Positions 45,938-64,000 of a DNA stretch of 64,000 bases are shown piece after piece. This DNA is from Marinomonas sp. UCMA 3892. Its GTDB lineage: Bacteria > Pseudomonadota > Gammaproteobacteria > Pseudomonadales > Marinomonadaceae. Numbering within the stretch: position 1 is the stretch's first letter; each line of letters begins with the position of its first letter. Both the position numbers and the translations under genes were made by a program. The stretch spans positions 1 to 64,000 of the forward strand of contig NZ_PTXN01000023.1 in assembly GCF_012726345.1 (NCBI RefSeq), read 5' to 3'. A model generated the notes under the pieces. The model made no database searches. It was given only the letters and a program-made list of their open reading frames with translations, and was not told the origin of the DNA.

Positions 45938-45956
45938 GATAATGGTTATCATTACA
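45938..45956. promoter_or_regulatory. Fur box upstream of entC
   Basis: gataatggttatcattaca matches 15 of 19 positions of GATAATGATAATCATTATC. It lies just before the entC ribosome-binding site (aaggag at 45956-45961), where bound Fur would block expression of entCEBA when iron is plentiful. Confidence 0.8.
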
Positions 45957-45966: not shown

Positions 45967-47142
45967 ATGGACACCACCTTCCCAGAATATGCTGATACGT
46001 TTGCATTGAATCATTCTCAAAATGATTTATTTTTATTCAATTCGAATTTTAATCTTGTGCGCGCAAATGGCATTAGCCAGCGTCTTACTATTCCAGTTCT
46101 TGCTAATACTTTTCATCACGACGTTCAGGCTGTATTCAAAAGAGAGAAAGCTCAAGGGAAGAATAATCCTATTTTGGTTGGGGCTATTCCATTCGATATG
46201 AATCAGGCTGCACAACTGGTAGTGCCAGAATGGTACGAGAGAGTAAAGCCCCTAGATCGTACCTGGCCGTCATTTGTGGACAAGGATTTTGTTCATCATG
46301 TGTGTGAGCATAGTTTTGGTCCAAGTCATGTGGATTTTTTAGACATGATAGAGCAGGCGTTGTCTATTTTTGAAAGCGGTCCTTTAAAAAAGGTGGTGTT
46401 ATCCAAAATACTGAAATTAACCTTAGACAGAAATGTAGACGTTCCTCGTTTATTGGCCAATATCATGGCGCAAAATCCAAGTGCTTACCATTTTAGTGTT
46501 CCGCTTGAAAATAGTGTTTTGATTGGCGCTAGTCCTGAATTACTCATTAGAAAACAAGGTAATAAGATATTTTCCAATCCATTGGCAGGGTCGGCTAAAC
46601 GTTTTGATAATGCCGATGCTGATCGGCAAGCGGCGAAAAGCCTCTCTAATTCTAAGAAAGATCACTATGAACACAGGCTTGTTGTTGATGCGATTCGAGC
46701 CTCTTTATTGCCTGTTGTCGAACGCCTTAATGTGCGGGAAGAGCCTAGCCTGATTTCAACGCCAACAATGTGGCATTTATCAACGGACATTGAAGCAACT
46801 CTGCCTGCTGTAAACCCTCCCTCGGTATTCGATCTTATAAAGCAAATACACCCAACACCAGCAATGTGTGGCACACCAACCTTACAAGCACAGCATCACA
46901 TTGAAGATCTGGAGCCGCACCAACGAGGCTTTTTTAGTGGCTTAGTTGGCTGGTGTGATGCAGAAGGCAATGGTGAGTGGGCTATAGCGATACGTTGTGC
47001 AGAAGTATCGGAGAATAAGGTGACCTTATTCGCTGGCGCTGGTGTTGTGCCAGATTCAAACCCAGAAAGCGAGTGGTTAGAAACCAGCGCAAAAATGCGC
47101 ACCATGTTGAATGCATTTGGAATAAAGGAAGATGTGATATGA
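45967..47142 (+). CDS. entC: Isochorismate synthase
   Basis: EntC converts chorismate to isochorismate, the first step to DHB. The 391-residue protein is of the chorismate-binding family: KKVVLSKILKL, SPELLIRKQGNKIFSNPLAG, SKKDHYEHRLVVDAIRAS, the Mg-binding IHPTPAMCGTPT and the end RCAEVSENKVTLFAGAGVVP with SNPESEWLETSAKM. It resembles EntC/DhbC rather than menaquinone MenF. It overlaps entE by four bases (ATGA). Fur-box-like sites lie upstream. Confidence 0.95.
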   Translation: MDTTFPEYADTFALNHSQNDLFLFNSNFNLVRANGISQRLTIPVLANTFHHDVQAVFKREKAQGKNNPILVGAIPFDMNQAAQLVVPEWYERVKPLDRTWPSFVDKDFVHHVCEHSFGPSHVDFLDMIEQALSIFESGPLKKVVLSKILKLTLDRNVDVPRLLANIMAQNPSAYHFSVPLENSVLIGASPELLIRKQGNKIFSNPLAGSAKRFDNADADRQAAKSLSNSKKDHYEHRLVVDAIRASLLPVVERLNVREEPSLISTPTMWHLSTDIEATLPAVNPPSVFDLIKQIHPTPAMCGTPTLQAQHHIEDLEPHQRGFFSGLVGWCDAEGNGEWAIAIRCAEVSENKVTLFAGAGVVPDSNPESEWLETSAKMRTMLNAFGIKEDVI

Positions 47143-48791
47143 GTATTGTTTTTACGCCTTGGCCAGAATCGTTTGCCAAAAAATATCGAGAAAAAGGTTA
47201 TTGGACTGATCGTCCATTACTGGACCTAATTGATAATGCACCACAAGAAAATGTTGCTGTTATTTGTGGTGAAAGGTCGTTGAGTTATCAAGACCTGTGT
47301 TCTCAATCTAGGCGATTAGCTGTTTATTTTCAGGAGCTTGGTTTACGAACTGGAGATACCGCATTGGTCCAGCTTCCTAATATTGCTGAGTTTTATGTGG
47401 TGTTTTTTGCGCTTATGCGTCTTGGTGTTGCTCCTGTTAACGCATTGTTTAGTCATAACAAAATGGAGTTAACCGCTTACGTCACACAAATTGCACCAAA
47501 GATTATTGTCGCCAGTGACGAACATGCTTTGTTTCATGATGGTGCTTTTTTCAACACATTGAATGTATTGTTAAAAGAGTTACAGCACGCTTTGATTGTT
47601 GGCAAATCAGAATGGGCTGAGACCCTCGAAAATATACTTGGGTCATCGACAAGTACATTGTTAACAGCAACACCAAGCAAGGCAGATGAGGTGGCATTCT
47701 TTCAGCTTTCTGGTGGCAGTACAGGTACGCCAAAGCTAATCCCAAGAACCCACAACGATTACTTTTTTAGTGTGCGTCGTAGTACTGAAATCTGTCACTT
47801 TACAGCCACTACAAAGTATCTGTGTGCGTTGCCTTGTGCTCATAATTTTCCTCTTAGCTCTCCTGGAGCTTTTGGTGTTTTTCATGTTGGCGGGTGCGTA
47901 GTTATGTCGCCAAGTCCTGATGCGAATACGTGTTTCGAGTTAATTGAACGTCATCAAGTGACTGTCGCCGCTTTGGTTCCTCCTGCTTTGGCTCTGTGGC
48001 TACAAGCGGCACCGTCTAATAATGCGTCTTTATCTTCTTTGCAGCTAATGCAGGTTGGTGGTGCAAAACTGAGTGAAAGCCTTGCTCGACAAGTGCCGAA
48101 AATACTGGGTTGTCAGTTGCAACAGATTCTTGGTATGGCGGAAGGTTTGGTGAACTACACCAGGCTGGATGATGACATTGAGACAATCGTAACTACTCAA
48201 GGGCGTCCTATGTGCTCGCTTGATGAAGTGAAAGTACTTGATGCCGAGGGCGAAGAGGTCGCTGCAGGGGAAATAGGCGAGTTGGCTACTCGTGGCCCAT
48301 ACACCATTCGTGGTTATTACAATTCGCCAGAACATAATGCCAAGGTGTTTGATGAGGAAGGGTTTTATCATTCGGGGGATTTGGTATGTCGTAACAATAA
48401 AGGGTATTTGACAGTAGTTGGGCGTGATAAAGATCAAATTAATCGCGGTGGTGAAAAGATTGCTGCAGAAGAAATAGAAAACCTTTTATTAAAGCATGAG
48501 TTGATTATGCACAGTGCGCTTGTCTCTATGCCAGACAGTATGATGGGAGAAAAAAGCTGTGCTTTTATTGTTCCTAAAGTGGTTAGTCATGGCATGAAAA
48601 GTATCTCTTTGCGTAAATATCTAAGAGGCCTTGGTGTGGCTGACTACAAAGTGCCTGATCGGTTTGAATTTATTGATTCTCTTCCCCTTACTCCTGTTGG
48701 CAAGCCTAATAAGGTTGCATTACGTGAGTTGATACGTCAGCGTTTACAACATAATTTACAGCTTACTTCTCAGTTAGATAAAACACTATAA
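47139..48791 (+). CDS. entE: 2,3-dihydroxybenzoate-AMP ligase
   Basis: EntE activates DHB as the adenylate and loads it on the carrier domain of EntB. The 550-residue protein starts MSIVFTPWPESFAKKYREKG and has the aryl-acid adenylation features FFQLSGGSTGTPKLIPRTHN, the aromatic-pocket region ALPCAHNFPLSSPGAFGVFH, YHSGDLVCRNNKGYLTVVGR and the catalytic Lys in LTPVGKPNKVAL. The start at 47139 overlaps the entC stop and is preferred to the longer in-frame version that starts at 47073 inside entC. Confidence 0.95.
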   Translation: MSIVFTPWPESFAKKYREKGYWTDRPLLDLIDNAPQENVAVICGERSLSYQDLCSQSRRLAVYFQELGLRTGDTALVQLPNIAEFYVVFFALMRLGVAPVNALFSHNKMELTAYVTQIAPKIIVASDEHALFHDGAFFNTLNVLLKELQHALIVGKSEWAETLENILGSSTSTLLTATPSKADEVAFFQLSGGSTGTPKLIPRTHNDYFFSVRRSTEICHFTATTKYLCALPCAHNFPLSSPGAFGVFHVGGCVVMSPSPDANTCFELIERHQVTVAALVPPALALWLQAAPSNNASLSSLQLMQVGGAKLSESLARQVPKILGCQLQQILGMAEGLVNYTRLDDDIETIVTTQGRPMCSLDEVKVLDAEGEEVAAGEIGELATRGPYTIRGYYNSPEHNAKVFDEEGFYHSGDLVCRNNKGYLTVVGRDKDQINRGGEKIAAEEIENLLLKHELIMHSALVSMPDSMMGEKSCAFIVPKVVSHGMKSISLRKYLRGLGVADYKVPDRFEFIDSLPLTPVGKPNKVALRELIRQRLQHNLQLTSQLDKTL

Positions 48792-48802: not shown

Positions 48803-49687
48803 ATGAGCATTCCAACGATACCGTCTTACTCAATGCCAACTGCTGATACGTTTCCCAATCAAAAAGTAAACTGGGTATTAGAGCCGAAGCGTGCCGTGTT
48901 TTTGATCCATGACATGCAGGCGTACTTTCTGCGCTTTTACGACGCTGATTCGGAACTGATTAAAACCTTGAAACAAAACCTTGCCGCTATCAAAGCCTAT
49001 TGCCGAGCCAATGATATTCCCGTTGTGTATACCGCGCAGCCCAATGACCAGAAACCGCAAGACCGTGCTTTATTAAATGATATGTGGGGAAGTGGCTTAA
49101 ATGATTTTCCTGAGTTGCAACAGGTTGTGAAAGAGTTGGCTCCAGACGAAAGTGACACGGTTTTAGTAAAGTGGCGTTATAGCGCATTTCATCGCTCTAA
49201 CCTTCAAGAACTTATGCAGAGCTGGGGACGCGACCAGTTATTGATTGGTGGTGTTTATGCACACATTGGCTGCATGATTACGGCAGCTGATGCGTTTATG
49301 CGTGATATTCAGCCTTTCATGATAGGCGATGCATTGGCGGATTTTAGTGAGGGAGAGCATAGACAGGCACTAACCTTTACAGGTGGAAGAACTGGTCGAG
49401 TGATTTCAACAAAAGAGGTGTTGATTGCAACCGATATTGTGGATACTGGCTTTCGCTATGAGCAGTTAAAAGCGCAAGTTTTTGCCTTCCTTGATGACGA
49501 AGATATCCAGGAGTTTGATGCCAATGAAGAGTTGATGGATTATGGCCTTGATTCGATTCAAATCATGTCATTGGTTACCAAATGGAAAGCGCAGGGAATT
49601 GAGGTTTCTTTTCAGGAATTGGCTAGTGCTGCAACGCTAAATGGCTGGTGGCACCTTATTCAAAGCAAAAGAGAGTGTGCAGCATGA
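48803..49687 (+). CDS. entB: Isochorismatase with aryl carrier domain
   Basis: The 294-residue protein has an N-terminal isochorismatase domain (residues about 25-210; FLIHDMQAYFLRFYD, VLVKWRYSAFHRSNL and GGVYAHIGCMITAADAFMRD) and a C-terminal aryl carrier domain (about 220-290; YGLDSIQIM, with Ser251 as the phosphopantetheine site). It makes 2,3-dihydro-DHB from isochorismate and presents DHB to the synthetases. Both synthetases in the locus probably draw from this carrier. An aagga ribosome-binding site is present. It overlaps entA by four bases. Confidence 0.96.
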   Translation: MSIPTIPSYSMPTADTFPNQKVNWVLEPKRAVFLIHDMQAYFLRFYDADSELIKTLKQNLAAIKAYCRANDIPVVYTAQPNDQKPQDRALLNDMWGSGLNDFPELQQVVKELAPDESDTVLVKWRYSAFHRSNLQELMQSWGRDQLLIGGVYAHIGCMITAADAFMRDIQPFMIGDALADFSEGEHRQALTFTGGRTGRVISTKEVLIATDIVDTGFRYEQLKAQVFAFLDDEDIQEFDANEELMDYGLDSIQIMSLVTKWKAQGIEVSFQELASAATLNGWWHLIQSKRECAA

Positions 49688-50442
49688 TCAATCCGCTCGA
49701 TTTTTCAGGGAAAACAGTTTGGGTAACCGGTGCTGGTAGAGGAATAGGGTTAGAAGTTGCGAACCAATTTACCCAATTTGGCGCAAAGGTTATTGGCTTT
49801 GACTTGTCATTTGATAATCAGTCTTATGATTTTGATTGTGTGATACTTGATATTAGCGATGAAAGTGCGGTTTTACAGACGATTCAAAACGTATTGTCAG
49901 ATTTTCCACGCTTAGATGTGCTGGTTAATGGTGCAGGAATATTACATTTAGGGGGCCTTGAAGAAACCAGCTTTGAGGGTTTCAAACACTGCTTTAACGT
50001 CAATGCTGGTGGTGCGTTTTTAATGATTAAGCATACGACTCCGACGTTTAAGCGTCAGAAAAGTGGGGCGATAGTAACCATTAGCTCGAATGCCGCAAAA
50101 GTACCGCGTCAGAATATGGCGGCTTATTGTGCATCAAAAGCCGCGTTATCTGCACTAAGCTATACTGCAGGTCTAGAGCTAGCGCCTTATGGTGTTCGGT
50201 GTAATCTGGTGTGTCCGGGTTCTACTGATACGCCAATGCAACGAATGCTGTGGACCAATGATGATGCTGAGCAAAACACTATTAACGGTTTTCCCGAGCA
50301 ATATAAATTGGGTATTCCGTTAGGCAAAATAGCTCAGCCGAGCGATATTGCTCAAGTGGTATTATTCTTTGCTTCTAATATGTCGAACCATATCACTATG
50401 CAAGACATTGTTGTGGATGGTGGTGCGACGTTAAATGCTTAA
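49684..50442 (+). CDS. entA: 2,3-dihydro-2,3-dihydroxybenzoate dehydrogenase
   Basis: EntA oxidises 2,3-dihydro-DHB to DHB with NAD+. The 252-residue short-chain dehydrogenase has the NAD motif VTGAGRGIGLEVA, NGAGILHLGG, the Ser motif TISSNAAKVPRQ and the active-site YCASKAALSALSY, and ends at TMQDIVVDGGATLNA. The start at 49684 overlaps the entB stop (ATGA); a longer version from 49648 would overlap entB more and is less likely. It ends the entCEBA unit. Confidence 0.95.
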   Translation: MINPLDFSGKTVWVTGAGRGIGLEVANQFTQFGAKVIGFDLSFDNQSYDFDCVILDISDESAVLQTIQNVLSDFPRLDVLVNGAGILHLGGLEETSFEGFKHCFNVNAGGAFLMIKHTTPTFKRQKSGAIVTISSNAAKVPRQNMAAYCASKAALSALSYTAGLELAPYGVRCNLVCPGSTDTPMQRMLWTNDDAEQNTINGFPEQYKLGIPLGKIAQPSDIAQVVLFFASNMSNHITMQDIVVDGGATLNA

Positions 50443-50478
50443 TTTATAATTGAATAACAATTGATTGGACTATTTATA

Positions 50479-50526: not shown

Positions 50527-50542
50527 GCGTTATTCCTAATTA

Positions 50543-52618
50543 TTACATGCGGTAGGTAGCGCTTAAGCCGATAGTGCGTGTTTGACCTACAGAGGCGCGT
50601 ACTGATCTTCCTCCACTAATTTGGTAAATAATGTCTTCGTCAGTTAGGTTCTTAACATAACCATCTATGGTTAGACTGCCATTAACGTACTGTATGCGAG
50701 CATCGGTACGGACATAGTCACCTGCTTTGTAGTCTTCGTTGTTATCTAAATCAGAGTAGTATTTGCCAACATAAGTTGTGTCCGCTCCAAAGGACCAGTT
50801 TTCACCAATATATTGAGTGAAGCCTAGGCTTAAGTTTGTTTCAGGGGCGCTAGGAAGGTCATTTCCTTTTGAGGATTCATAATTGTCAATTTCGCTTCGT
50901 AGCAAACCAATAGAACCGCGTACTTGAAGATCATCGGTAGCCCAAGCGGTGGCTTCCACTTCTAAGCCGTATGTGTGTGCTGAATCAATGTTGTTGATTC
51001 GATCATTATACATGGCTTGATAATCAGAGTAGTCATTGTAGAACAAAGAGGTATTTAATGTAGTGCCATTTTCGAATTGACTTTTGCTGCTCACTTCGTA
51101 AGCAATAACCTCTTCGCTATCATAAGTATAGAACTCGCGTGTTGAGTCCCATTGATAAGCAGAACCGCCAGGGCTGTAGCCTTTACGAATGTTGGCGCCT
51201 AATGTTGTGGTATTTGATATTGCATGTGTTAAACCGATTTTTGGTAGGAGGTTTGTTTCGCTATCGTCGTGATCAACATCGGTACGGCCATCATTGACAA
51301 TAAAGCGGTCTGCTTCTTCTCTTTCTACTCGAGCACCACCAATCAAATTTGTTTTCTCAGTTAATGCATAGCTTCCTTCACCGTAGAATGCCAATGTAGT
51401 GGTGGAGGTGTCGTTGGCTGTGTACCAGTCTTGACCACGGTAAGTGATGTCTGTATCAGCGTCTTTTTTTGACACGAATAAGCCAATGACACCTGTTAGT
51501 TTCGCGTCAGGTTGATTGAAGATGATACGGTTTTCAATCGTTGTGGTATTTTTTGTTATGTCGAGTAGGGTTGTCCCAGGATATTCATCAAAGCTTACTT
51601 TGCTTTTGCTATAGGCGATATATAAAGCGTTACTGATCCCATCACCTAGATCGTAATCGATGTCTATTGCAATTGCGTCTGTTGTTGAATCTTGTAGACG
51701 TGTATTGCGACCACCACTTCCTAAAGTCATCAGTGGCCCAGAAAAGTTATTTTTTTCATCATTTGCCCAGCTTAAGTACTCTCCTTCATACTTGTGATGT
51801 TCAACGGTTAATTTCGTAGTTAAGTTCGGGTTACTTGCAGGCTCCCAAAGCAATTTTCCGCGTACATTGTAGTTTTCTGCATCGTTGACGTCGGGGCCAG
51901 TGTCTAGCTCATTGTTTTCTTGAGCGTAGTTCATCCAACCTTCGCCCTTAGTGCCATCGAGTGTAATACGATATGCCAGCTCATCGTCAATTAAGGCACC
52001 TGATGACATCGCTCCTAAGTTGTATTTCAGATTTCCGTTTTCGTAATGTTCAAGTCCGGCTCGTATAGCGGACTCATTGGTAAAGGTCGGGTCGTTCGTT
52101 TTTATTACCACTGCGCCTGCGATCGAACTGGTACCTTGGGTTGTAGATTGTGGGCCACGTAAGACTTCCACTTGCTGGGCGTCCCAGACACCACTTGGCG
52201 TGAAATTATAGCCAGACCAATCTTGGGTTCCACCATCAATTACGGTAGAGACGCGAGAGCGTGCGCCAGTGATCAAGGCGTAACCACCGGAAGCCGCTCC
52301 GTTACCACTCATTCCTCGAATCGCGACATTACCAAATGCAGAAGTGACGACGTTTGGTGCTTGCGTTGCTAGTTCTTTTACCTCTTTAGTTTCGCCACTA
52401 GCAATATCTTTACCATGAATAATGGTAACGGCTGTTGTTGTTTCTTTAATGTCTTTGTCGATTTTTTCACCAGTAACGACCAAGGCTGGTAATGCATTAA
52501 CCTCTTCCGCGAATGCATTTGATGAAACACAAGCCGCATTAATGCTAATGACCGCTAGGGCGACGGTAGATAGGTTGCTTGGGAATTGAACTGATGGTTT
52601 TTTCTTTAAGAGAGACAT
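50543..52618 (-). CDS. TonB-dependent siderophore receptor
   Basis: The 691-residue outer-membrane protein has a signal peptide (residues about 1-40, ending at SNAFA-EE), a TonB-box-like start ALVVTGEK, a plug domain (residues about 45-170; VAIRGMSGN, VEVLRGPQSTTQGTSSIAGA) and a 22-strand barrel ending TRTIGLSATYRM. The last residue is Met rather than the usual aromatic. The start at 52618 is preferred to the upstream in-frame ATG at 52684 because aagga lies before it and it begins the signal peptide. The likely substrate is the ferric siderophore made here. Confidence 0.93.
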   Translation of the reverse strand: MSLLKKKPSVQFPSNLSTVALAVISINAACVSSNAFAEEVNALPALVVTGEKIDKDIKETTTAVTIIHGKDIASGETKEVKELATQAPNVVTSAFGNVAIRGMSGNGAASGGYALITGARSRVSTVIDGGTQDWSGYNFTPSGVWDAQQVEVLRGPQSTTQGTSSIAGAVVIKTNDPTFTNESAIRAGLEHYENGNLKYNLGAMSSGALIDDELAYRITLDGTKGEGWMNYAQENNELDTGPDVNDAENYNVRGKLLWEPASNPNLTTKLTVEHHKYEGEYLSWANDEKNNFSGPLMTLGSGGRNTRLQDSTTDAIAIDIDYDLGDGISNALYIAYSKSKVSFDEYPGTTLLDITKNTTTIENRIIFNQPDAKLTGVIGLFVSKKDADTDITYRGQDWYTANDTSTTTLAFYGEGSYALTEKTNLIGGARVEREEADRFIVNDGRTDVDHDDSETNLLPKIGLTHAISNTTTLGANIRKGYSPGGSAYQWDSTREFYTYDSEEVIAYEVSSKSQFENGTTLNTSLFYNDYSDYQAMYNDRINNIDSAHTYGLEVEATAWATDDLQVRGSIGLLRSEIDNYESSKGNDLPSAPETNLSLGFTQYIGENWSFGADTTYVGKYYSDLDNNEDYKAGDYVRTDARIQYVNGSLTIDGYVKNLTDEDIIYQISGGRSVRASVGQTRTIGLSATYRM

Positions 52619-52663
52619 GCTATTCCTTTTTGCATTGTTAAGTAAATGTTTGTTAATATTATT

Positions 52664-52682
52664 GATAACGATAATGATTCGC
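52664..52682. promoter_or_regulatory. Fur box between the receptor and esterase genes
   Basis: gataacgataatgattcgc matches 15 of 19 positions of the Fur consensus. It lies 46 bases before the receptor start on one side and 33 bases before the esterase start on the other, so it probably controls both divergent units. Confidence 0.85.
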
Positions 52683-52714
52683 AATAGTATTTAAGCGTAT
52701 TTTTGAAATAAAGG

Positions 52715-54037
52715 ATGAATGTGTTGAATCAGGAATCTGTGTTGCCAGTTTGGTTGGAATATTTTGGTGTTTGCCAAGAACAGGTTGGCAGCAACGTTTG
52801 GTGGCAAAGCGTCAGTTCTACAGGTATGCCTTTTATAAAGGAGGAAAGTGAGCAAACCAGCTCAGTGTTGTTTGTCTGGCAAGATCCTCAAGGAAATGAA
52901 TATGAATCAAGCATTGCTGGTGTGTTGCTTGATGTTAATTCGTTGACAGACCATCACAGTTGGGAACCTGTTTGCTTACATCGAATAAGTGGTACGGATG
53001 TGTGGTTGGGAGAGTTACAGGTCGATTCTAGCTGGCGAGGCAGTTATTCCTTTATTCCGATCGAAAAGCACCAGTTGCCAGATTCTGTGCGACAAACGGG
53101 CGATGGTTCTAGAGAAGCGCAACGTGCTTGGTGGATGTCTGTTGCCGTTAATCAGATTTCTGATCCATTAAATCCATTACCTGAATTGGTTTCGGGGTGG
53201 GGGATAAGTTCACCGCTTCATCTTCCTAAAGCCACAACTGCATTGGGTTGGCAGGAATGGGATCGTGGGGAGTTGAATGCTATTCCGGTGAGTCGAGTTC
53301 ATGCCATCAATTGGTCTTCAACTAATCTGGGTAATCAGCGAACAGTTTGGCTTTTCTCGACTGCAACTAGTGACGCACCATTGGTTATATTGCTTGATGG
53401 ACAAAAATGGGGAGCGCCAAGTGGCACGCTATCGGTTCTCCAGTATTTAACAGATACCTTTAAAATAGCATCTGCTCATTATCTTTTGGTGCCTTCAATT
53501 GATGGGCCAACTCGCTGGAAAGAGCTGAGTTGTCATCACTCTTTTTGGCAGTCTTTGTTAGATGAACTTTTGCCAATAGTAACGTCAATGCTTGCAGTAG
53601 ACGATTGTTCTGTTACTGATTTTCTTGTTGCTGGTCAGAGTTTAGGTGGGCTTTCTGCTTTGTACGCAGGTATTACCTTTCCAAAGTATTTTTCTAAAGT
53701 GATTAGTTTATCTGGCTCCTTTTGGTGGCCAGAAGACAGTCGGATGCGAGCACCTAATGATACGACTTCTAGTGACGAATGGATTAAGAATGTACCTGCA
53801 AATAGCCTGGCTGACCAAATCCTAAAAAATCAAATAAGCGTTTCTCATTTACAAGTTTTTTTGAATGTGGGAAGTGGCGAAGCAGATATGTGCCTATATA
53901 ACGAAGCGACTTATCGAGCGATTCGGCAAAAAGGTGGTCGGGTGCATTACGAGGTAGTTTGTGGTGGGCATGATTGGTTGTCATGGCGCTCAGGCCTTAT
54001 TGATGGTTTGCGACATTTAATGCCAGCTAGATCCTAA
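52715..54037 (+). CDS. fes: Ferric-siderophore esterase (Fes type)
   Basis: The 440-residue protein lacks a signal peptide and so acts in the cytoplasm. It has the Fes N-terminal domain (about 1-180; ISGTDVWLGELQVDSSWRGS and VNQISDPLNPLP) and an alpha/beta-hydrolase domain with nucleophile in VAGQSLGGLSALYAG, ISLSGSFWWPE, and a His in CGGHDWLSWR. It should open a serine trilactone to free iron, which implies a cyclic siderophore. aaagg lies right against the ATG at 52715, so the GTG at 52721, six bases on in frame, may be the true start. Confidence 0.92.
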   Translation: MNVLNQESVLPVWLEYFGVCQEQVGSNVWWQSVSSTGMPFIKEESEQTSSVLFVWQDPQGNEYESSIAGVLLDVNSLTDHHSWEPVCLHRISGTDVWLGELQVDSSWRGSYSFIPIEKHQLPDSVRQTGDGSREAQRAWWMSVAVNQISDPLNPLPELVSGWGISSPLHLPKATTALGWQEWDRGELNAIPVSRVHAINWSSTNLGNQRTVWLFSTATSDAPLVILLDGQKWGAPSGTLSVLQYLTDTFKIASAHYLLVPSIDGPTRWKELSCHHSFWQSLLDELLPIVTSMLAVDDCSVTDFLVAGQSLGGLSALYAGITFPKYFSKVISLSGSFWWPEDSRMRAPNDTTSSDEWIKNVPANSLADQILKNQISVSHLQVFLNVGSGEADMCLYNEATYRAIRQKGGRVHYEVVCGGHDWLSWRSGLIDGLRHLMPARS

Positions 54038-54064
54038 CTTTATTGAATTAACAGGGAGTAAAAA

Positions 54065-54289
54065 ATGAGTAATGAAGTAATTAACCCATTTGAAGATGAT
54101 TCATTGGCGTTTTTGGTCTTGGTGAATGCACTGAAGCAGCACAGTTTATGGCCACTTTTTAAGGCAATACCACCAGGTTGGCAACAGGCTTTTGGACCGA
54201 GTTCTCGTGAAAATTGTCTTGAGTATGTCGAAACGAATTGGACGGATATTCGCCCGCAAAATTCCCCTTCACTTTCTAGCGGTTCTTAA
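54065..54289 (+). CDS. ybdZ: MbtH-like protein
   Basis: This 74-residue protein is a cofactor that helps NRPS adenylation domains fold and work. It has the family pattern: NPFEDDSLAFLVLVN, SLWPLFKAIPPGWQQAFGP, and SRENCLEYVETNWTDIRP. It lies between the esterase and the two-module synthetase genes, matching the place of ybdZ near entF in enterobactin loci. gggag precedes the ATG. Confidence 0.95.
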   Translation: MSNEVINPFEDDSLAFLVLVNALKQHSLWPLFKAIPPGWQQAFGPSSRENCLEYVETNWTDIRPQNSPSLSSGS

Positions 54290-54300
54290 AGAAGTTTATT

Positions 54301-57300
54301 ATGGAAAATAACATTGCATCGCGTATTAACAAATCAATAGGCTTAGTGGATAGTTCGGTTGTGCCCCTTACTGATGTGCAAATGGGCATATGGATGGCTG
54401 ATCATATTTCTTCTCAACGTAATGCTTTCACCATTGCACATAAGGTTCATATTAAGGGTGATCTGGATTCTCAGCATTTATTGGAAGCGATTCAGTTAGG
54501 GCTTAAAGAGGCTGATACTATATGGGCTGTTTATCGTGAATACGATGGTGTTCCGACTCAACAGCTGGAATGCAGTGACCTAGATATTACTCCTGAAAGG
54601 TTGGACATCTCGAATGAAAGTGATGGACAAGCTTATATGGACTCGCTTATTCAGCAAGATTTGGATGCAGAGTTGACGCTGTCTTCGACTATGCCATTAG
54701 TTCGCCAAATTGTGTTTAAACTGTCCGATCAGCTGTATGTTTGGTATCAACGCTTTCACCATATCATGCTAGATGGGTTTAGCTTTAATGCCTTTACTGC
54801 CAGAGTAGCGAGCATATATCAGGCGCTTGTTCTGCAAAAAACGGTTTCGAATACACCTTATGCTTCGTTTTATAAGGTAGTAGAGGAAGAGCAAGCCTAT
54901 AAGAAATCAGATAAATACTTGCATGACAAAGCCTTCTGGGCCGAATACTGTGCCGATTTACCTAACATGATCAGTTTATCTAATCGTGAAGTATCGACGG
55001 ATGCAAAAAGTGCTTCGGTATCCCAGCGCTTAATTAGAGTAAATGGCCGTATTGGTGGGGAGAAATTACAAAGCTGTCTAGATCGATTCCCCTTTTCTAA
55101 TCTTACAGCTGCTGACTTGGCAATGGGATTGATCTCAGCGTATTTGATTCGAATGACGGGGCAATGGCGAGTTCCAATTGGGTTACCATTTATGGGGCGC
55201 GTTGGTAGTGTTTCTTTAAGTGCGCTTGGGCCAGTGGTGAATGTGTTGCCTGTCATTATTGAAGGGCATCTAGACGACGGTATTTTTGAGCTGGCGCGAC
55301 GAATAAAACAAATTTTGAAAGCCATACGCAAGCACCAAAAATACAATGCTGAGCAAATTTCTCGTGATTTGAATCGCGTTGGAGAAGCCTTATATGGTCC
55401 AACATTAAACTTGCGGCTGTTTGATTATGATCTCTCGTTTGGTGAGGTCTCGGCAAAAATAGAACACCTTGCAGCTGGGCCTGTTGAAGATCTGGATTTC
55501 GGTTTGCACTTTGACAGTGGCGATCTTCATATAGAGTGGGTGGGTAATGATCAAAAATACGATATCGAATCGTTAAATAGGCATCTGCAGCGCTTTGAAG
55601 AATTTGCTGAAAGACTTTTAAGAGATTCTGATACTCGTATTGCCGATGTTTCAACGTTACTAACCTCTGAGCAATTGCAGATTCAACGTTGGCAGAAGGG
55701 CGTAGTGGCATCTAATAGTCACTATGTGAGTTTGATTGAACAGTTTCATGGGTTAGATAATTCTTTGGCACCTATACCGGCGTTAGTGGTGAAAGAACGG
55801 TCGATTAGCTTCGCACAATTACATGACAATGTCGCAAAATGGGCGCAAGTGTTGAGTGAGTTTGGGGTGAAAAAAGGCGCTTGTGTTGGACTGGCTTTAC
55901 CGCGAGACGAACGCATGGTTTACGCCATGTTCGCGACCATGGGTCTTGGTGCACATTATTTACCGATTGATCCGACTTACCCTGAAGAACGCATTCATTG
56001 GATGCTAGAAGACTCTGCTCCTCAGTTATTGATTACTTGTGATGCTTATGGCTTTAACGTGTCTGACAGAACACGTGTTTTGTCGGTTGATGATGACAGT
56101 TTTATACAATCAGTAGATCAACAAGACCCTTTAAAAGCCGTGTTTGATTTTCCTTCGTCAGATGACTTGGCTTATATCATGTACACATCTGGTTCGACTG
56201 GAAAAGCAAAGGGGGTGGCGATAGCTCACAAAGGTTTAGTTAATTTAGCATTTTTCCATTGGTTACGCGATGGCAAGGCGTTGGCAGAAAAGCATTCAAA
56301 TGTGAATGCCATACTGACTGCTTCTTTTTCATTTGATACCAGTTGGGACTCGCTATATTGGCTGTGCTTTGGGCACACCCTTCATATTGTTGACGATGAA
56401 ATTTGTAAGGACCCTGAGCTTATTGAACAGTATTTTAATGAACATCGAGTTCATGTCGCAGATCTTCCACCCACAGTGCTAGGTCAGCTTTTTGATCTTG
56501 AAACAATAGAGCCAGCCAAGTGCTTTCCTGAGTTAATTTACATTGGTGGCGAAGCGCCATCTTCTCGTTTATGGCAACGAGCACGACGTTACCCAGCATT
56601 GAATGTTAGAAATTACTATGGCCCGACCGAGAATACGGTAGACAGCCTAGGAGCCGATATAAAAGACTCGGATCAAGTTGTGATAGGCCGTCCGATCGCC
56701 AATACTGAATCCTATATACTCGACTCCAGTCTATCGCCAGTTGCCATTGGAACCACCGGAGAGCTCTATGTTTCAGGACCTGGCTTGGCGCACGGATATC
56801 TAAATCAAAGTTCGTTAACCGCAGCTCGCTTTATTGCTAATCCATTCAAATTGGGTGAGAGGATGTATCGAACGGGTGATTTGGCGAGATGGCTAGAGAG
56901 TGGGCAGGTTGAGTTTATTGGGCGGATAGATCATCAAGTGCAAATTCGCGGACATCGTGTTGAACCAGGTGAAATTGAGACGGTTCTAAACGCATTTGAA
57001 AATGTGAAAAGCAGTCTGGTTGTCGCCAATAAACAGGGCAGTACACATCGTTTAGATGCTTATGTCGTACTTGATCACTATCGAAAGGTTGCTGATGAGC
57101 AGGCAATACAAAACAAAGTTCAAACTTTGATAGATGCTTTGTCTCGTCAACTTCCTTCGTATATGGTTCCGGCTACTGTGACGTTATTGGAGCAATTTCC
57201 ATTAAACACAAACGGTAAGATAGATCGAAAAGCCTTACCAGACCCTGTCATTATTCGCAGCCGTGGAATCTTGCCAAAGAACGATAAAGAAGCGCTAGTG

Positions 57301-60300
57301 TGCAAATGGGTTCAGAAGGCTTTGAATCTAGATTGTGTCTTCATTGATGATGACTTTTTTGCGTTGGGTGGCGATAGTATTGTCGCTATGTCTTTAGGCA
57401 GTTTAGCGCGAAAAGATGGCTACTATTTACGAGCAAAAGATGTCTTTGAAAGTCGTACAATCCGTTCAATAGCAACACAGTTATCACGATTAAATGTCGC
57501 AAAAAAGCCGTCAAGTGTTCAATTCGGTCAGCTATCGAATTTACCAATTTATCACTGGATGCAGGAAGCTGGGGGTCTTAATCAGCCTTATTTTCAGGCC
57601 GTATGTTTTGCTTTACCAGATTCTATGTCACATCAGCATTTTGAACAGGTTATTGCCAAATTGATTGCTGCTCATAGCATTCTTACGGCTCAAGTTCATG
57701 CTTCTCACCTTGATATTGCCGTTTCAGAAAATGCTTTTTCTGTAAAGGTATTTGAGCAACAGGAAAGTTTATCCAAATTGGCAGACGATGCTTTCGAGCA
57801 GCTTGTTCGCATTGAATCGAATGAAGCTTTTGCCGCTATGCGAGTGGCCTATTTGAGTGCTGACAATAAAAAAGCAGCCGTGTTTGTTATGCATCATTCG
57901 ATAATAGATGGGATGTCATGGCGAATTCTTTTTTCTGATATAGCGAGCTTATTGGATGACTCAGATACAAGTTTATCCCCCTCACCCAATAGCTTAATAG
58001 ATTGGCAAAAGGTTCTGGCAGATGAGATGCCTCGCTGGTTGTCCCAGCAACCATATTGGTTGGAGCAACGAAAAGGCAAGCCACTGGTAGAGCGCGAAGC
58101 ATCAAATGAGCGAGCGCATCAACGGATTTTATTAGATGAGAATGTTTCTGAACTTTTATTAGGCGTTATACCCAAGCAATACCAGTGTCAGTCCCAAGAG
58201 GCTATTTTGAGTGTTTTATATATTGCTCTCGCTAGGCAATATAAGAAGACAGATATCTCAATGATGCTGGAATCCCATGGTCGCGCAGATATCGGTGAGC
58301 TAGATTTAACTCGAACCTTAGGCTGGTTTACCGCTGAATACCCGATGCGTATGGCTGGAAAAGACACTCTATTATTTGACCTTAATCACCCAGAATCGCC
58401 TTATGAAGAAGTCGTACAGTTAGTGCGTAGTAGTCTGCTTAGAGTGCCTAATGATGGTGTGGGTTATGGTGCGTTACACTATTTAGTTGATCAGACTCCG
58501 TCTATATTTGCGATGAGTAGTAACACAGCAGCACCACAAATTTTATTTAACTACCTTGGTCGTTTTCAGCAGGGTGATCTTTCTCTGATTCAAGGTGAAC
58601 GCTATTTTAAAGACACCTTTGAAGTACATCAATCCGATCAGCTGAAATCGTCTTATGCGTTGGAACTAAATATTTTTGTGGATGAAAGCCAGGGCGCTCC
58701 GCAGTTAGTCATTTATGTGGATCACGATGTTCAACAAATTTCTCCTGCAGAAACCCAAGAACTGATTAATCAGTTATCTGATGCCACGTTGTCTATGAGT
58801 AAATTCGCTCAAACGCACCAAGCTATAGCGGCGGACACCTTGGTGCCTGAAGACCTGAAAAATTTGGATCTGAGTGAGCAGAACATACATAGGTTAAGAA
58901 GCCAATATGGCTCCTTACAAGCAATTTTGCCCGCTTTACCTTTGCAAGAAGGACTACTTTTTCATGCACAACTAGAAAAGGAAAGTAATGCTAGCGATGC
59001 GAGTTATAGCTCTTTAGTACGTCTGAAATTTTCTGGTGTTATGGACACTGAGCGTCTTAAAGCATCGTTAGGCGCTGTAATGAAAAGGCATCCTCAACTC
59101 GGCGCCTTATTTGATTTTTCCCAAGGCAATACCGCGTTACAAATTTTACCTTGGCGACGTGGCGAGCGGAAAACGTGGGTGCCACTACAGGTAGTTGATT
59201 TAACGGATCAAGATGTTCTTGCCCAACAAAAAAAATTGCAGGACATTGAGCACGAAGAACTCAATCGAGATTTTATGGCGTTTCAGTCAGCAGGCATTCC
59301 GTTACTGCATACTGTTTTAGTTTGTATGTCAGATAATCAACATTACTTGTTTTTAAATGCCCATCATTTGGTCGTTGATGGCTGGTCAACGCCTATCCTA
59401 ATTCGTGATTTGCTTACAGCTTATGGTAGTAGTGCTATTGAATTACCAGCTATTCCAGTTCCGTATTCTCAGGTCGTTGAGCGACTCGTGTCTAGAGATA
59501 AAACGGTGATGCGAGATGCGTGGAAAGGAGCATTAGCGGGTTCTACGCCGACGCTGCTATTTGCGGATAAACCACCTTCATCACAGGTAACAACTCATAC
59601 GCTGACACTTTCCGAGGATAAGTTTGCCAAGCTCAAAGGTTTTTATCAGCATAGAGGGCTTACCTTAAATAGTGTGTTGCAAACCTTGTGGGCTAACCTA
59701 CTTTCGGCGTTAACAGGTCGTTCTGAGGTGATCTTTGGTACACCTGTTTCTGGTCGCTTTTCTGATGTGGCGGGAATAGAAGAACATATAGGGCTATTTA
59801 GCAATACGGTTCCTGTCCGTGTGCAATTACAGCCTGAATTGACCTTATGGCAGCAAATGCAACAAGTCCAATATGAACAAGTTGGTTTGTTAGAACACGA
59901 TGGATTGGGGTTGGCTGAAATCCAACGCTTAGGAGGACATGCTAATTTATTTGATACCTTGCTGGTGGTGGAAAACTTTCCTGAGCAAACAGAATTATTT
60001 GCTCAGGAATACCAAGGGATTCGACTTTCAGAAGTGTATAGCCGAGGTTTCACTCATTATCCATTGACGGTATTAGCATTGCCTAGTGAACAGTTAAATT
60101 TACTGTTTGAGTACCGAGGTGGCGCTGAAATTAACGATCTAATAGAACGTTTCGATAGCTTAGTAACCTCGTTGTTAAGCGATGGCAATTCGCCACAGCA
60201 AGCATTAGATCTTAGGTTACCAGCCGAAAAAGCGATAACAAAAAGCGTGAATGACACTTTTCAGACTTTACCTAGAATGACGCTCCGTGATGGTTTAATG

Positions 60301-62835
60301 AAGCAGGTTAGTCTGACACCACATCAGGTTTGTATATCTGATGATGAGTATCAATTAACGTATTTAGAGGCTCGTTACCAAGTTGTTACGCTGGCCAAAG
60401 AACTACAATCTTTAGGTGTTCAATCTGGTGATGTTGTGGCGGTTGCGCTGCCTCGTTCTGTTAAGTTAAGTCTTGCCCTGTGGGCGACTATTGAAGTGGG
60501 TGCTGCTTATCTTCCGCTTGATACGGGATATCCAGATGATCGACTAAATTACATGCTGGAGGATGCTAAACCAGCAGCATTGATTACATTAGCAAGCGAA
60601 GCTAGTCGCTTTGTGACGGCTAGCAAACAGTACTTTTATGATTCACCGATTAGATCAGCTGAAAGTTTTGAATTACAGCGAGTGCTAGATGACTGGAATG
60701 CACCCCTTTTAAGAGTAAATGAAGCCGCATATTTGCTTTATACCTCGGGCTCAACGGGTCGGCCGAAAGGGGTTTTAGTTTCTCATCAAGCTATAGTGAA
60801 TCGTATTTTGTGGATGCAAAACCAATATCCGCTGACCTCGGACGATGTTGTTCTACAAAAAACACCTTGCAGCTTTGATGTGTCGGTTTGGGAGTTCTTT
60901 TGGAGTGCTATGGTTGGAGCCAAATTGCACATGGCACCGCCAGAGTCTCATCGTGATCCGCTTCAATTACAACAATTGATTACTGACAATAAGATAACGA
61001 CTTTGCATTTTGTTCCCTCCATGTTGGCAGCATTTGTGTCTTCCTTAGACGGCGAAAACTCAGACACTTGTCATCGTTTAAAACGGGTCTTCTGCAGTGG
61101 TGAGGCCTTGCCTGTTGAATTGTCAAAGCAATTCGAAGTAAGCGTTGGTTGCGAACTTCATAATTTATATGGGCCAACAGAAGCCGCAGTGGATGTCTCT
61201 TATTATCCTGCTTTTGGTCACTATTTGGCTCAATTAAAAGGAGTTGGGGTGCCTATTGGTTATCCCGTTTGGAATACTCAACTGCGGATACTGGATAACT
61301 TCCTACGTCCAGTACCTATTGGTGTTGCTGGGGATTTATATCTGTGTGGTGTACAGCTAGCGGATGGCTATTGGCATCGGCCTGAATTATGCGCTACTCG
61401 CTTTGTGGCTGACCCAGAAGCCAATGGTGGGCGTATGTATCGTACTGGTGATGTGGTTCGTTGGTTAGACAGTGGGGCTGTTGAATACCTTGGTCGAAGT
61501 GATGATCAGCTGAAAATTCGCGGTCAGCGCATAGAGCTAGGTGAGATAGAACAAGTGCTCGCAGCGCAAATAGGCGTGGATCAATCTGTTGTTGTGGCGA
61601 AAACATTAGGCCAAGACAATAGCGCTATGGGCGCTGATGCTCGTCAATTGGTGGCCTATGTCACTAGTCGTTCAGGCGAGTTGGACACCGTGCAGATTCG
61701 CTCCTCGATGAGTGACTTATTACCTGCTCATATGGTGCCTGTTGCTGTATTGCAATTGGACACTATGCCGTTAAGTGCGAATGGAAAGCTTGACCGAAAA
61801 GCCTTACCGCAGCCATCTGAGTTTTTAGGGGCGAAAAAAGGAAGGCCACTCAAATTAGGTCTTGAAACTGAAATAGCCAATGCTTTTTCTAAGATATTGG
61901 GTGTGACAGATCTTAATGCGAGTGATGATTTCTTTACCTTGGGCGGTCATTCGATTTTGGCAGTGCGTTTGGTTTCAGAGCTGCGTAAGATGTTGAAGCT
62001 AAATATTACGGTTGGGCAGATTATGGTGTCTCCAACTATTGAATCGTTAGCCCTGGTAATTGCCAATCAAGATCCGACACAAAGTCGCGATCTATCTGGC
62101 TTTGGCGCGGTGTTACCGATAAAAGAGGGTACTGGCTTACCTATTTTTTGTATTCATCCTGCGTCTGGTTTTGCTTGGCAATATGCTGGCTTTGCTCGTT
62201 ATCTATCGCACACTTCTCCCATGATTGGTTTGCAGTCTCCACGGCCAGATGGGCCCATTGCAGCACAAACTAATATGGACGGTGTTATCGAACAGCACTT
62301 TAAAGTGCTAAGAGAGAGGCAGCCAACAGGGCCCTACAGGCTGATTGGTTACTCCTTAGGCGGTGTCATTGCACACGCTCTGGCGGTTCGATTACAAGCA
62401 ATAGGCGAGGAGGTGAGCTTTCTTGGGTTGTTGGATACTTATCCACCCGACGAGCAAGATTGGTCCGAATCTGTTGATGCTGAAATACAGCATGAAGTTG
62501 AACGAGAGAGGGCAAAGTTCATGGATACATCAGAAGATATTTTAGATGAGCAGGTTGAAGAGGCGCAAGATGCCATGTTTGCCGATATTGTGCAGAACTA
62601 TGCCGACTCGGTAGCTTTACTTTCAAAGGCAAAAACGCAGCGTTATCAAGGCAAAGCTGTTTTGTTTGTGGCAGATAAAACCGTGCCAGAGAAGATGAAT
62701 ATTCAGGCAGCATGGGCGCCTTATGTCGATGAGCTCGAAGAGCATCATTTTGATTTTGCGCATGAAGATATTTTATCGCCTGAAGCGCTTACTGCGCTGG
62801 GTCCTGTTTTTAACCAATTGGTCTCAGAGCTATAG
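54301..62835 (+). CDS. Nonribosomal peptide synthetase C-A-T-E-C-A(Ser)-T-TE
   Basis: This 2844-residue synthetase has two modules. Module 1: C (about 15-450, HHIMLDGFS), A1 (475-985), T (GGDSI near 1023) and an epimerization domain (1077-1510; HHSIIDGMSWRI near 1198, GVGYGALHYL, FNYLGRFQ). Module 2: C (1523-1960, HHLVVDGWS), A2 (1993-2500), T (GGHS near 2548) and TE (2607-2844, GYSLGG near 2682). The A2 pocket reads D-V-W-H-F-S-L-V-D, as in EntF, meaning serine. The A1 pocket reads D-T-D-D-Y-G-Y-V-D; the extra acidic residues suggest Lys, Arg or Orn. The layout matches VabF- and CbsF-type synthetases for DHB-D-residue-Ser siderophores; a trilactone release by the TE is inferred. Confidence 0.93.
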   Translation: MENNIASRINKSIGLVDSSVVPLTDVQMGIWMADHISSQRNAFTIAHKVHIKGDLDSQHLLEAIQLGLKEADTIWAVYREYDGVPTQQLECSDLDITPERLDISNESDGQAYMDSLIQQDLDAELTLSSTMPLVRQIVFKLSDQLYVWYQRFHHIMLDGFSFNAFTARVASIYQALVLQKTVSNTPYASFYKVVEEEQAYKKSDKYLHDKAFWAEYCADLPNMISLSNREVSTDAKSASVSQRLIRVNGRIGGEKLQSCLDRFPFSNLTAADLAMGLISAYLIRMTGQWRVPIGLPFMGRVGSVSLSALGPVVNVLPVIIEGHLDDGIFELARRIKQILKAIRKHQKYNAEQISRDLNRVGEALYGPTLNLRLFDYDLSFGEVSAKIEHLAAGPVEDLDFGLHFDSGDLHIEWVGNDQKYDIESLNRHLQRFEEFAERLLRDSDTRIADVSTLLTSEQLQIQRWQKGVVASNSHYVSLIEQFHGLDNSLAPIPALVVKERSISFAQLHDNVAKWAQVLSEFGVKKGACVGLALPRDERMVYAMFATMGLGAHYLPIDPTYPEERIHWMLEDSAPQLLITCDAYGFNVSDRTRVLSVDDDSFIQSVDQQDPLKAVFDFPSSDDLAYIMYTSGSTGKAKGVAIAHKGLVNLAFFHWLRDGKALAEKHSNVNAILTASFSFDTSWDSLYWLCFGHTLHIVDDEICKDPELIEQYFNEHRVHVADLPPTVLGQLFDLETIEPAKCFPELIYIGGEAPSSRLWQRARRYPALNVRNYYGPTENTVDSLGADIKDSDQVVIGRPIANTESYILDSSLSPVAIGTTGELYVSGPGLAHGYLNQSSLTAARFIANPFKLGERMYRTGDLARWLESGQVEFIGRIDHQVQIRGHRVEPGEIETVLNAFENVKSSLVVANKQGSTHRLDAYVVLDHYRKVADEQAIQNKVQTLIDALSRQLPSYMVPATVTLLEQFPLNTNGKIDRKALPDPVIIRSRGILPKNDKEALVCKWVQKALNLDCVFIDDDFFALGGDSIVAMSLGSLARKDGYYLRAKDVFESRTIRSIATQLSRLNVAKKPSSVQFGQLSNLPIYHWMQEAGGLNQPYFQAVCFALPDSMSHQHFEQVIAKLIAAHSILTAQVHASHLDIAVSENAFSVKVFEQQESLSKLADDAFEQLVRIESNEAFAAMRVAYLSADNKKAAVFVMHHSIIDGMSWRILFSDIASLLDDSDTSLSPSPNSLIDWQKVLADEMPRWLSQQPYWLEQRKGKPLVEREASNERAHQRILLDENVSELLLGVIPKQYQCQSQEAILSVLYIALARQYKKTDISMMLESHGRADIGELDLTRTLGWFTAEYPMRMAGKDTLLFDLNHPESPYEEVVQLVRSSLLRVPNDGVGYGALHYLVDQTPSIFAMSSNTAAPQILFNYLGRFQQGDLSLIQGERYFKDTFEVHQSDQLKSSYALELNIFVDESQGAPQLVIYVDHDVQQISPAETQELINQLSDATLSMSKFAQTHQAIAADTLVPEDLKNLDLSEQNIHRLRSQYGSLQAILPALPLQEGLLFHAQLEKESNASDASYSSLVRLKFSGVMDTERLKASLGAVMKRHPQLGALFDFSQGNTALQILPWRRGERKTWVPLQVVDLTDQDVLAQQKKLQDIEHEELNRDFMAFQSAGIPLLHTVLVCMSDNQHYLFLNAHHLVVDGWSTPILIRDLLTAYGSSAIELPAIPVPYSQVVERLVSRDKTVMRDAWKGALAGSTPTLLFADKPPSSQVTTHTLTLSEDKFAKLKGFYQHRGLTLNSVLQTLWANLLSALTGRSEVIFGTPVSGRFSDVAGIEEHIGLFSNTVPVRVQLQPELTLWQQMQQVQYEQVGLLEHDGLGLAEIQRLGGHANLFDTLLVVENFPEQTELFAQEYQGIRLSEVYSRGFTHYPLTVLALPSEQLNLLFEYRGGAEINDLIERFDSLVTSLLSDGNSPQQALDLRLPAEKAITKSVNDTFQTLPRMTLRDGLMKQVSLTPHQVCISDDEYQLTYLEARYQVVTLAKELQSLGVQSGDVVAVALPRSVKLSLALWATIEVGAAYLPLDTGYPDDRLNYMLEDAKPAALITLASEASRFVTASKQYFYDSPIRSAESFELQRVLDDWNAPLLRVNEAAYLLYTSGSTGRPKGVLVSHQAIVNRILWMQNQYPLTSDDVVLQKTPCSFDVSVWEFFWSAMVGAKLHMAPPESHRDPLQLQQLITDNKITTLHFVPSMLAAFVSSLDGENSDTCHRLKRVFCSGEALPVELSKQFEVSVGCELHNLYGPTEAAVDVSYYPAFGHYLAQLKGVGVPIGYPVWNTQLRILDNFLRPVPIGVAGDLYLCGVQLADGYWHRPELCATRFVADPEANGGRMYRTGDVVRWLDSGAVEYLGRSDDQLKIRGQRIELGEIEQVLAAQIGVDQSVVVAKTLGQDNSAMGADARQLVAYVTSRSGELDTVQIRSSMSDLLPAHMVPVAVLQLDTMPLSANGKLDRKALPQPSEFLGAKKGRPLKLGLETEIANAFSKILGVTDLNASDDFFTLGGHSILAVRLVSELRKMLKLNITVGQIMVSPTIESLALVIANQDPTQSRDLSGFGAVLPIKEGTGLPIFCIHPASGFAWQYAGFARYLSHTSPMIGLQSPRPDGPIAAQTNMDGVIEQHFKVLRERQPTGPYRLIGYSLGGVIAHALAVRLQAIGEEVSFLGLLDTYPPDEQDWSESVDAEIQHEVERERAKFMDTSEDILDEQVEEAQDAMFADIVQNYADSVALLSKAKTQRYQGKAVLFVADKTVPEKMNIQAAWAPYVDELEEHHFDFAHEDILSPEALTALGPVFNQLVSEL

Positions 62836-62902
62836 CTTCAAAACAACAACTTCAAACGTATTAGAGCGCGGCAAACTGTCGCGCCAGATTTAAAGAGTCG
62901 TT

Positions 62903-64000
62903 ATGTCTAAATCAAATATCATGTTGGACTTTAGTTTGCTAAAAACCAACAGAAACTTTCGTGCTATTTTCATTGCTCGGCTGATGTCTGTGTTGGGCAT
63001 TGGGATGCTAAATGTTGCTGTGCCGGTACAGATATATGAGTTAACGGGATCCAGTTTACAGGTTGGTTTTGCCGTGGCGTTAGATGGAATGGGGATGTTT
63101 GTCGGTTTGATGCTAGGAGGTGTTTTAGCTGACAGAATGGACCGCAAATGGCTGATTCTATTTTCGCGCTTTATTTGCGGTGTTGGTTTTGTTTTGCTTG
63201 CAGCCAATGCGTATTTGTCAGAGCCAAGTCTATGGGCCGTTTATGCCATTTCCCTTTGGGACGGTTTTTTCAGTGCGATTGGAATGACAGCATTAATGGC
63301 GTCTATTCCTCATTTAGTCGGGCGAGAAAATTTGCCAACAGCGGGTGCATTGAGCATGTTGATTGTGCGAATTGGTTCCGTCATTTCACCCGCCATTGCC
63401 GGTGTGGTAATTGTGTCATTTGGGGTGACATGGAACTATACCTTGGCTGCGATAGGTACGCTTTGTACTTTAATTACCTTGGTTACTTTGCCAAACATGA
63501 AGCCGCAAGAAGGTGGGCCTCAAGAACACCCGATTCGCTCTTTAATGGACGGATTTAGCTTTGTATTTACGCATAAAGTTATTCGTGCCGTTGTTGCCTT
63601 GGGTACGCTAGAAGCAGTCACCAAATCAATTCGTATTTTATTTCCTGCTTTAGCGGCAACCGCGTTTGGTGGCGGGGCGTTTGAGGTGGGGCTCATGTAC
63701 GCCGCGGTGCCTGTAGGATCGACCTTAGGAGCACTTACTAGCGGTTGGGTTCGTCATGCGAAGAGGCCAGGTATGGTTATGCTGTTCACGGCGTTTTTCT
63801 CCTTTTTGTGTGTCTCTGCGTTGGGGTTTATGGGACATTTAGTGTTGATGCTGCTTGCCTTGGCGGTGTTTGGTTATCTAGGGTCGATTGGTGGTTTGCT
63901 GCAATACACCATTGTACAAGGTCATACTCCCGATCATATGTTAGGGCGAATTGGTAGCTTCTGGACAGCGCAAGATGTGGTAGGCGATTCTGCTGGTGCA
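62903..64000 (+). CDS. entS: EntS-like siderophore exporter (MFS), runs off the window
   Basis: The frame stays open from the ATG at 62903 to the window end, giving 366 residues of the usual roughly 415. It resembles EntS: LLKTNRNFRAIFIARLMSVL, MLNVAVPVQIYELTGSSLQV, the loop GGVLADRMDRKWLILFSR, and QYTIVQGHTPDHMLGRIGSF with WTAQDVVGDS. EntS exports enterobactin across the inner membrane. It follows the two-module synthetase gene after 67 bases (which hold a small gcgcg/cgcgc stem) and probably exports its product. The missing end lies downstream. Confidence 0.93.
   Translation, partial: MSKSNIMLDFSLLKTNRNFRAIFIARLMSVLGIGMLNVAVPVQIYELTGSSLQVGFAVALDGMGMFVGLMLGGVLADRMDRKWLILFSRFICGVGFVLLAANAYLSEPSLWAVYAISLWDGFFSAIGMTALMASIPHLVGRENLPTAGALSMLIVRIGSVISPAIAGVVIVSFGVTWNYTLAAIGTLCTLITLVTLPNMKPQEGGPQEHPIRSLMDGFSFVFTHKVIRAVVALGTLEAVTKSIRILFPALAATAFGGGAFEVGLMYAAVPVGSTLGALTSGWVRHAKRPGMVMLFTAFFSFLCVSALGFMGHLVLMLLALAVFGYLGSIGGLLQYTIVQGHTPDHMLGRIGSFWTAQDVVGDSAGA

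Follow-up and report, generated by a model that had tools for sequence, protein, structure and literature searches.

A Marinomonas Dimodular Synthetase Predicted to Build a Catecholate Siderophore with a D-Cationic Spacer Residue

Synthetases that combine 2,3-dihydroxybenzoate (DHB) with a cationic spacer residue and serine form a known class, and their products differ in the identity and configuration of the spacer. Turnerbactin, the product of TnbF, contains L-Orn, and loss of an epimerization (E) domain has been suggested for this enzyme; its pocket code is matched by that of VabF at 60% (PMC3795760). The siderophore of FreF contains L-Lys, and siderophores of the Lys series form ferric complexes whose handedness depends on the spacer (PMC8480324). 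An E-bearing cluster of Chromobacterium violaceum leads to a D-Lys product, viobactin (PMC13251462). Here, we describe NRPS1, a nonribosomal peptide synthetase (NRPS) encoded in a stretch of 64,000 nucleotides from Marinomonas sp. UCMA 3892 (NZ_PTXN01000023.1, positions 1 to 64,000), hereafter the window.

Judged by its sequence, NRPS1 appears to be a further member of the DHB-(cationic residue)-Ser class, and it very probably acts iteratively, with two modules, to make a catecholate siderophore of the composition (2,3-DHB–D-cationic residue–L-Ser)n. Pfam assigns three of its stretches to condensation-type (C) domains, two each to AMP-binding and carrier domains, and one to a thioesterase (TE). 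BLAST with the window's own domains returns the order C1-A-E-C2-A2-TE, where A is an adenylation domain, both in NRPS1 and in its E-bearing relatives; loci L178 and L179 were also used for the domain order. Genome-wide, PF00668 is matched four times, by C1, E, and C2 of NRPS1 and by one stretch of a second synthetase, NRPS2. The first module combines a starter C domain with a pocket predicted to be specific for a cationic residue, and the second has a Ser code in A2 followed by the TE. A complete 2,3-DHB siderophore locus surrounds the gene, comprising entC/E/B/A, a receptor, Fes, MbtH, and EntS (Table 1). The interval 55720–58830, whose product an earlier sequence-only reading had placed in the vanchrobactin, chrysobactin, or ornithine group, spans A1, the first peptidyl carrier protein (PCP1), and E; the DHB genes, the Ser module, and the thioesterase bear that grouping out.

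The A1 pocket reads DTDDYGYVDK (D235, T236, D239, D278, Y299, G301, Y322, V330, D331, and K517). The first nine residues had already been read by hand alignment as D-T-D-D-Y-G-Y-V-D; Lys517 is the tenth. Behind the D235 motif, A1 domains like that of NRPS1 lack one residue relative to A2; where the resulting gap is placed sets the register and thereby whether residue 239 is Asp or Trp. When only Marinomonas domains are aligned, the gap falls before the Trp and yields Trp239; once 79 related A domains are added, it moves behind residue 243 and yields D239. The D239 register also reproduces the codes of domains specific for Ser, Thr, and hydroxyornithine. Applied to two genomes from the same order (G613 and G688, 2432-aa frames from one related genus), it gives DSDDGGLVDK, which is identical to the TnbF code as published in PMC3795760; these two may be called Teredinibacter-like by virtue of this code identity rather than by name. 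On the basis of the 79-domain alignment, the TnbF match, and the Ser, Thr, and hydroxyornithine codes, Trp239 was rejected and D239 is not regarded as an alignment error.

Of 110 other A domains in the same open reading frames, 4 are acidic at both 239 and 278, versus 49 of 79 scan matches, a contrast that is partly built in, as the latter were selected by their likeness to A domains of the A1 kind. All 13 members of the clade to which the window A1 belongs carry both acids, and the doubly acidic pocket is not due to chance. It is common to FreF (L-Lys) and TnbF (L-Orn), whose products establish Lys and Orn as substrates of related pockets; this lends support to the earlier suggestion that Asp239 and Asp278 point to a cationic residue.

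In a tree of 71 A domains, from which actinobacterial-labelled loci (except seven) and five named loci duplicating numbered Marinomonas genomes were omitted, three clades are of interest. The window A1 clade has 13 members (support 100/99), namely 12 E-bearing Marinomonas synthetases and one (G718) from another family of the order, all 13 with an E domain. Its consensus code is D[TS]DD[YFWL]G[YF][VI]DK, made up of DTDDYGYVDK (seven members), DTDDYGYIDK (two), DSDDFGYVDK (two), DSDDWGYVDK (one), and DTDDLGFIDK (one). The Lys clade (18 members, 100/100) unites FreF with the chrysobactin-like synthetases of Enterobacterales; 16 of the 18 have an E domain, and the codes are DSEDMGYIDK (15), DSEDMGFIDK (two), and DSEDMGYVDK (one). 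In the TnbF-code clade (24 members, 100/99), the two TnbF-code domains are joined by those of Azospirillum, Acinetobacter, Thalassolituus, and others, and by three Marinomonas domains (G027, G047, and G033). No E domain was detected by domain search in 22 of its 24 rows, the frames of the remaining two (G047 and G688) being too short to hold one. Leu or Val occupies position 239 in 22 of the 24, so a double acid is not a requirement. E-less synthetases from Azospirillum in this comparison have the code DSLDLGLVDK, which may mean Orn because a catecholate of A. brasilense, another species of the genus, contains DHB, Orn, and Ser (PMC3795760).

The window A1 falls outside both the Lys and the TnbF-code clades. 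The three groups reappear in smaller trees of the C1 and C2 domains, where support is given by SH-aLRT only and some values are under 95. The phylogeny that the sequence-only reading had proposed as a check, run here with TnbF-code domains, FreF, and chrysobactin-like sequences, places A1 on a branch of its own, and A1 stands apart from the A domains for Ser and Gly that this locus also encodes. No member of the window clade in this set has a known product; identification of a single A1 substrate as Lys, Arg, or Orn would label 13 synthetases. The clade may already be described in the literature. A search for six pocket codes returned only the TnbF paper (PMC3795760), and one combining Marinomonas with siderophore, catechol, or nonribosomal peptide returned nothing beyond a general review.

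The E domain, which harbors the motif HHSIIDGMSWRI (57892–57927), is predicted to invert the spacer residue. Its five motifs (Table 1) align with those of the E domains of GrsA (5isw) and PvdL, and the HHxxxDG, E(G/S)HGR, and NYLGR motifs of functional E domains are all present. HHxxxDG and ESHGR are intact in all 11 aligned Marinomonas orthologues (12 of 12 with the window), as they are in all 12 further E-bearing synthetases that were aligned; the remaining motifs vary slightly. Together with the grouping of C2 with C domains found after E domains, the intact motifs agree with the D residue predicted earlier from the presence of E. An inactive E domain, with a product that retains the L residue, would be compatible with the existence of E-less relatives (in Yersinia and in the TnbF-code clade), which indicate that the pathway can work without E. 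Such inactivity is highly improbable, given that both motifs have been kept in the window and in every Marinomonas orthologue, three of which are only 29–32% identical over E.

The proposed mechanism is as described for this kind of synthetase. EntE would load DHB onto EntB. Together with MbtH, A1 would activate an L-cationic residue for attachment to PCP1, and C1 would couple DHB to it. After epimerization of this residue by E, C2 would link the resulting D form to L-Ser, the residue activated by A2. The TE would then release monomers or join up to three of them via Ser esters. EntS is the likely exporter; the TonB-dependent receptor would import the ferric complex, and Fes would open the esters.

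Among the cationic residues, D-Arg is our first choice by judgement, and we consider it about evenly balanced whether it is the spacer. The choice follows from the position of A1 apart from the Lys and TnbF-code clades, which leaves D-Arg as the remaining cationic residue known in such siderophores. Activation of L-Orn, giving a D-Orn counterpart of turnerbactin, is possible if on balance unlikely. D239 and D278 are common to the window and the TnbF code, but the TnbF-code domains form the other clade, in which no E was found in the 22 of 24 rows checked, and positions 299 and 322 differ. We know of no report of such a D-Orn compound. L-Lys, in which case NRPS1 would be a diverged synthetase of chrysobactin or trichrysobactin, is quite unlikely: the E-type order is that of 16 of the 18 Lys-clade synthetases and G301, Y322, and D331 are in common, whereas A1 lies outside that clade at full support and has D and Y where E239 and M299 are constant (18 of 18). 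The probability of a spacer other than D-Arg, D-Orn, or D-Lys is almost negligible.

Several observations weigh against the proposal of a D-cationic residue and the choice of D-Arg. The A1 code matches that of TnbF (Orn) at 7 of 10 positions, the chrysobactin-like code at 6, and that of FreF (Lys) at 5, and so does not favor Arg. The branching among the three clades is not settled, with p values of 0.187 for the window clade joined to the Lys clade and 0.194 for it joined to the TnbF-code clade in the approximately unbiased (AU) test. The after-E group also takes in the C2 domains of E-less synthetases, such that C2 is no proof of a D substrate; their position there fits the loss of E that PMC3795760 suggests for TnbF. 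Finally, PMC3795760 implies an E domain in VabF, yet a passage of PMC5577590 lists two C, two A, and two PCP domains and a TE, with no E.

Some match to NRPS1 at 1e-50 is present in 39 of 94 genomes (the window's own included), mostly through generic A domains. Matches above 370 bits are E-bearing in 12 of 48 Marinomonas genomes, again including the window's own, and E-less in 3 of 48. One of 369 genomes drawn from across the class matches at 1e-95, this being the window's own, and 15 of 390 drawn from the order match at 1e-90, its own included.

Two Marinomonas genomes, G047 and G027, have much the same locus without NRPS1 and carry instead an E-less synthetase with its own receptor, esterase, and exporter. 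G047 aligns with the window over 32.9–52.7 kb at 88–92% DNA identity, and its EntS and Fes are 94% and 80% identical. Window positions 53995–62887 have no in-place counterpart there, the only match being one of 65% inside A2, to the E-less synthetase, and EntS follows Fes almost directly. The block that separates receptor and Fes in G047 contains additional receptor-like, EntS-like (56%), and Fes (32%) genes, one further gene, and, on the opposite strand, the E-less synthetase; the G047 genes are named by likeness to those of G027. The latter has the same layout in a chassis 81–84% identical to that of the window; in its block, the receptor is CirA-like, the further gene encodes a binding protein of the enterobactin type, and there is a fragment of a transposase. 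In a third genome, G046, 52.2–64 kb of the window (Fes-NRPS1-EntS) is matched at 91% and the rest of the locus at 72–79%, a jump that points to movement of this part as a unit.

It is a plausible proposal, with the chances evenly split, that Marinomonas exchanges its spacer-residue synthetase as a cassette and that this cassette sets the handedness of the siderophore, being either E-bearing (D) or E-less (L), the latter with a receptor, esterase, exporter, and binding protein of its own. Related species keep the DHB genes, Fes, and EntS, and G047 also the receptor. By analogy with the Lys series (PMC8480324), the E-bearing type would give a D residue and a Λ ferric complex, and the E-less type an L residue and a Δ complex. 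G047 would then make an L-type siderophore while retaining D-type uptake genes. If the exchange is real, close relatives differing mainly in the synthetase slot offer a direct test of whether ferric-siderophore handedness privatizes iron. A simple cassette story is countered by the receptor slot, which is not tied to the type of synthetase, by the greater distance of G033, and by the occurrence of the E-less form in three genomes only. The receptor was considered as a marker of product type and rejected, as it varies independently of NRPS1: it is 97% identical in G047, which lacks NRPS1, 78% in G030 with an NRPS1 of 47%, and 50% in G006 with an NRPS1 of 91%.

The features of the locus are collected in Table 1. 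EntC scores over its subfamily cut-off and under the EntC and DhbC equivalog cut-offs, and MbtH is present in all 17 genomes searched. Where G006, G027, and others have a gene for an EntD-type phosphopantetheinyl transferase, between entA and the receptor, the window has none (50442–50543). There is no 4PPT_N match in 6 of 21 genomes, including that of the window, which has another PF01648 match elsewhere (a 260-aa frame, G000:C13:94994-95263). In G040 (L162:15752-17730), entA directly follows entC with no entE or entB between them, and an EntB of 50% identity lies ~12 kb further on.

NRPS2 (C-A-PCP-TE, 38042–42241, minus strand) lies beside the locus with major facilitator superfamily (MFS), FecE-like, and FecCD-like genes (42225–45438, minus strand). 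Its C domain groups with the first C domains of DHB synthetases, and its pocket, DILQLGLIWK, is presumably a Gly code. It is present in 13 of 48 Marinomonas genomes, 5 of which (G005, G012, G024, G039, and G013) have no EntB match at 1e-30; these five weaken the idea that NRPS2 serves the same pathway by supplying a DHB-Gly unit. On the NRPS2 side of G046 (L035:6086-6532), a pseudoazurin gene (a copper protein, just over the family cut-off) that is absent from the window stands between the MFS and FecE-like genes.

Table 1. Features of the NRPS1 locus in window coordinates
Feature	Position	Strand	Basis or remark
Fur-box-like site before entC	45938..45956	-	3 mismatches to the consensus; 1 match vs 0.03 expected
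Isochorismate synthase EntC	45967..47142	+	TIGR00543, 291.5 bits, cut-off 224.75
2,3-DHB adenylate synthase EntE	47139..48791	+	over two equivalog cut-offs; start picked within longest frame
EntB, isochorismatase with aryl carrier domain	48803..49687	+	
EntA, 2,3-dihydro-2,3-DHB dehydrogenase	49648..50442	+	over two equivalog cut-offs
TonB-dependent receptor	50543..52684	-	Pfam; no NCBIfam match at 1e-60
Fes-like enterochelin esterase	52715..54037	+	over equivalog cut-off
MbtH-like protein, 74 aa	54065..54289	+	directly before NRPS1
NRPS1, dimodular synthetase C-A1-PCP-E-C-A2-PCP-TE, 2844 aa	54301..62835	+	open reading frame, Pfam, BLAST
C1, starter-like condensation domain	54355..55680	+	groups with first C domains of DHB synthetases
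A1 adenylation domain	55696..57255	+	
A1 pocket codons, first base	D235 56335, T236 56338, D239 56347, D278 56461, Y299 56539, G301 56545, Y322 56614, V330 56638, D331 56641, K517 57217	+	
PCP1 attachment motif LGGDSI	57364..57381	+	
E domain	57580..58689	+	from sequence only
E-domain motifs	HHSIIDG 57892, ESHGR 58270, RTLGWFTAEYP 58312, GVGYG 58456, FNYLGRF 58546	+	
C2 condensation domain	58921..60231	+	groups with C domains found after E domains
A2 adenylation domain	60247..61824	+	Ser code DVWHFSLVDK
TE thioesterase domain	62140..62796	+	GYSLGG at 62347
EntS-like exporter	62903..64000	+	over equivalog cut-off; cut by window end

Among the known systems, the synthetases of chrysobactin and cyclic trichrysobactin (CbsF kind, represented by Dickeya undicola and other Enterobacterales loci, and with them that of viobactin from Chromobacterium violaceum, PMC13251462) resemble NRPS1 in the order C-A-E-C-A-TE, the Ser code of A2, and the adjoining Fes and EntS; MbtH was seen in three chrysobactin-like plasmid loci, as in the window. 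The window differs from the chrysobactin-like synthetases, of which CbsF itself is outside the set, at positions 239 and 299, and its A1, though followed by E as in theirs, neither joins the Lys clade nor carries DSEDMG(Y/F)(I/V)DK. TnbF shares D239 and D278, the combination of DHB, a cationic residue, and Ser, and the Ser code of A2 (PMC3795760). However, it has no E domain and its A1 belongs to a separate clade, whereas the window has an E domain and neither the TnbF code nor its clade position. FreF likewise combines DHB, a cationic residue, and Ser and has acids at both positions (E239 and D278 in Yersinia frederiksenii ATCC 33641), but it lacks E and belongs to the Lys clade. The second half of NRPS1 corresponds to the Ser module with TE of the enterobactin synthetase EntF, its best NCBIfam match (1801.6 bits, under the cut-off of 2400); in contrast to the single module of EntF, NRPS1 has an additional module, with E, for the predicted cationic residue in front of it. 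VabF, likened here by description only, makes a product of DHB, D-Arg, and Ser (PMC3795760, PMC8480324), which is the composition that we propose, as first choice, for the siderophore of the window.

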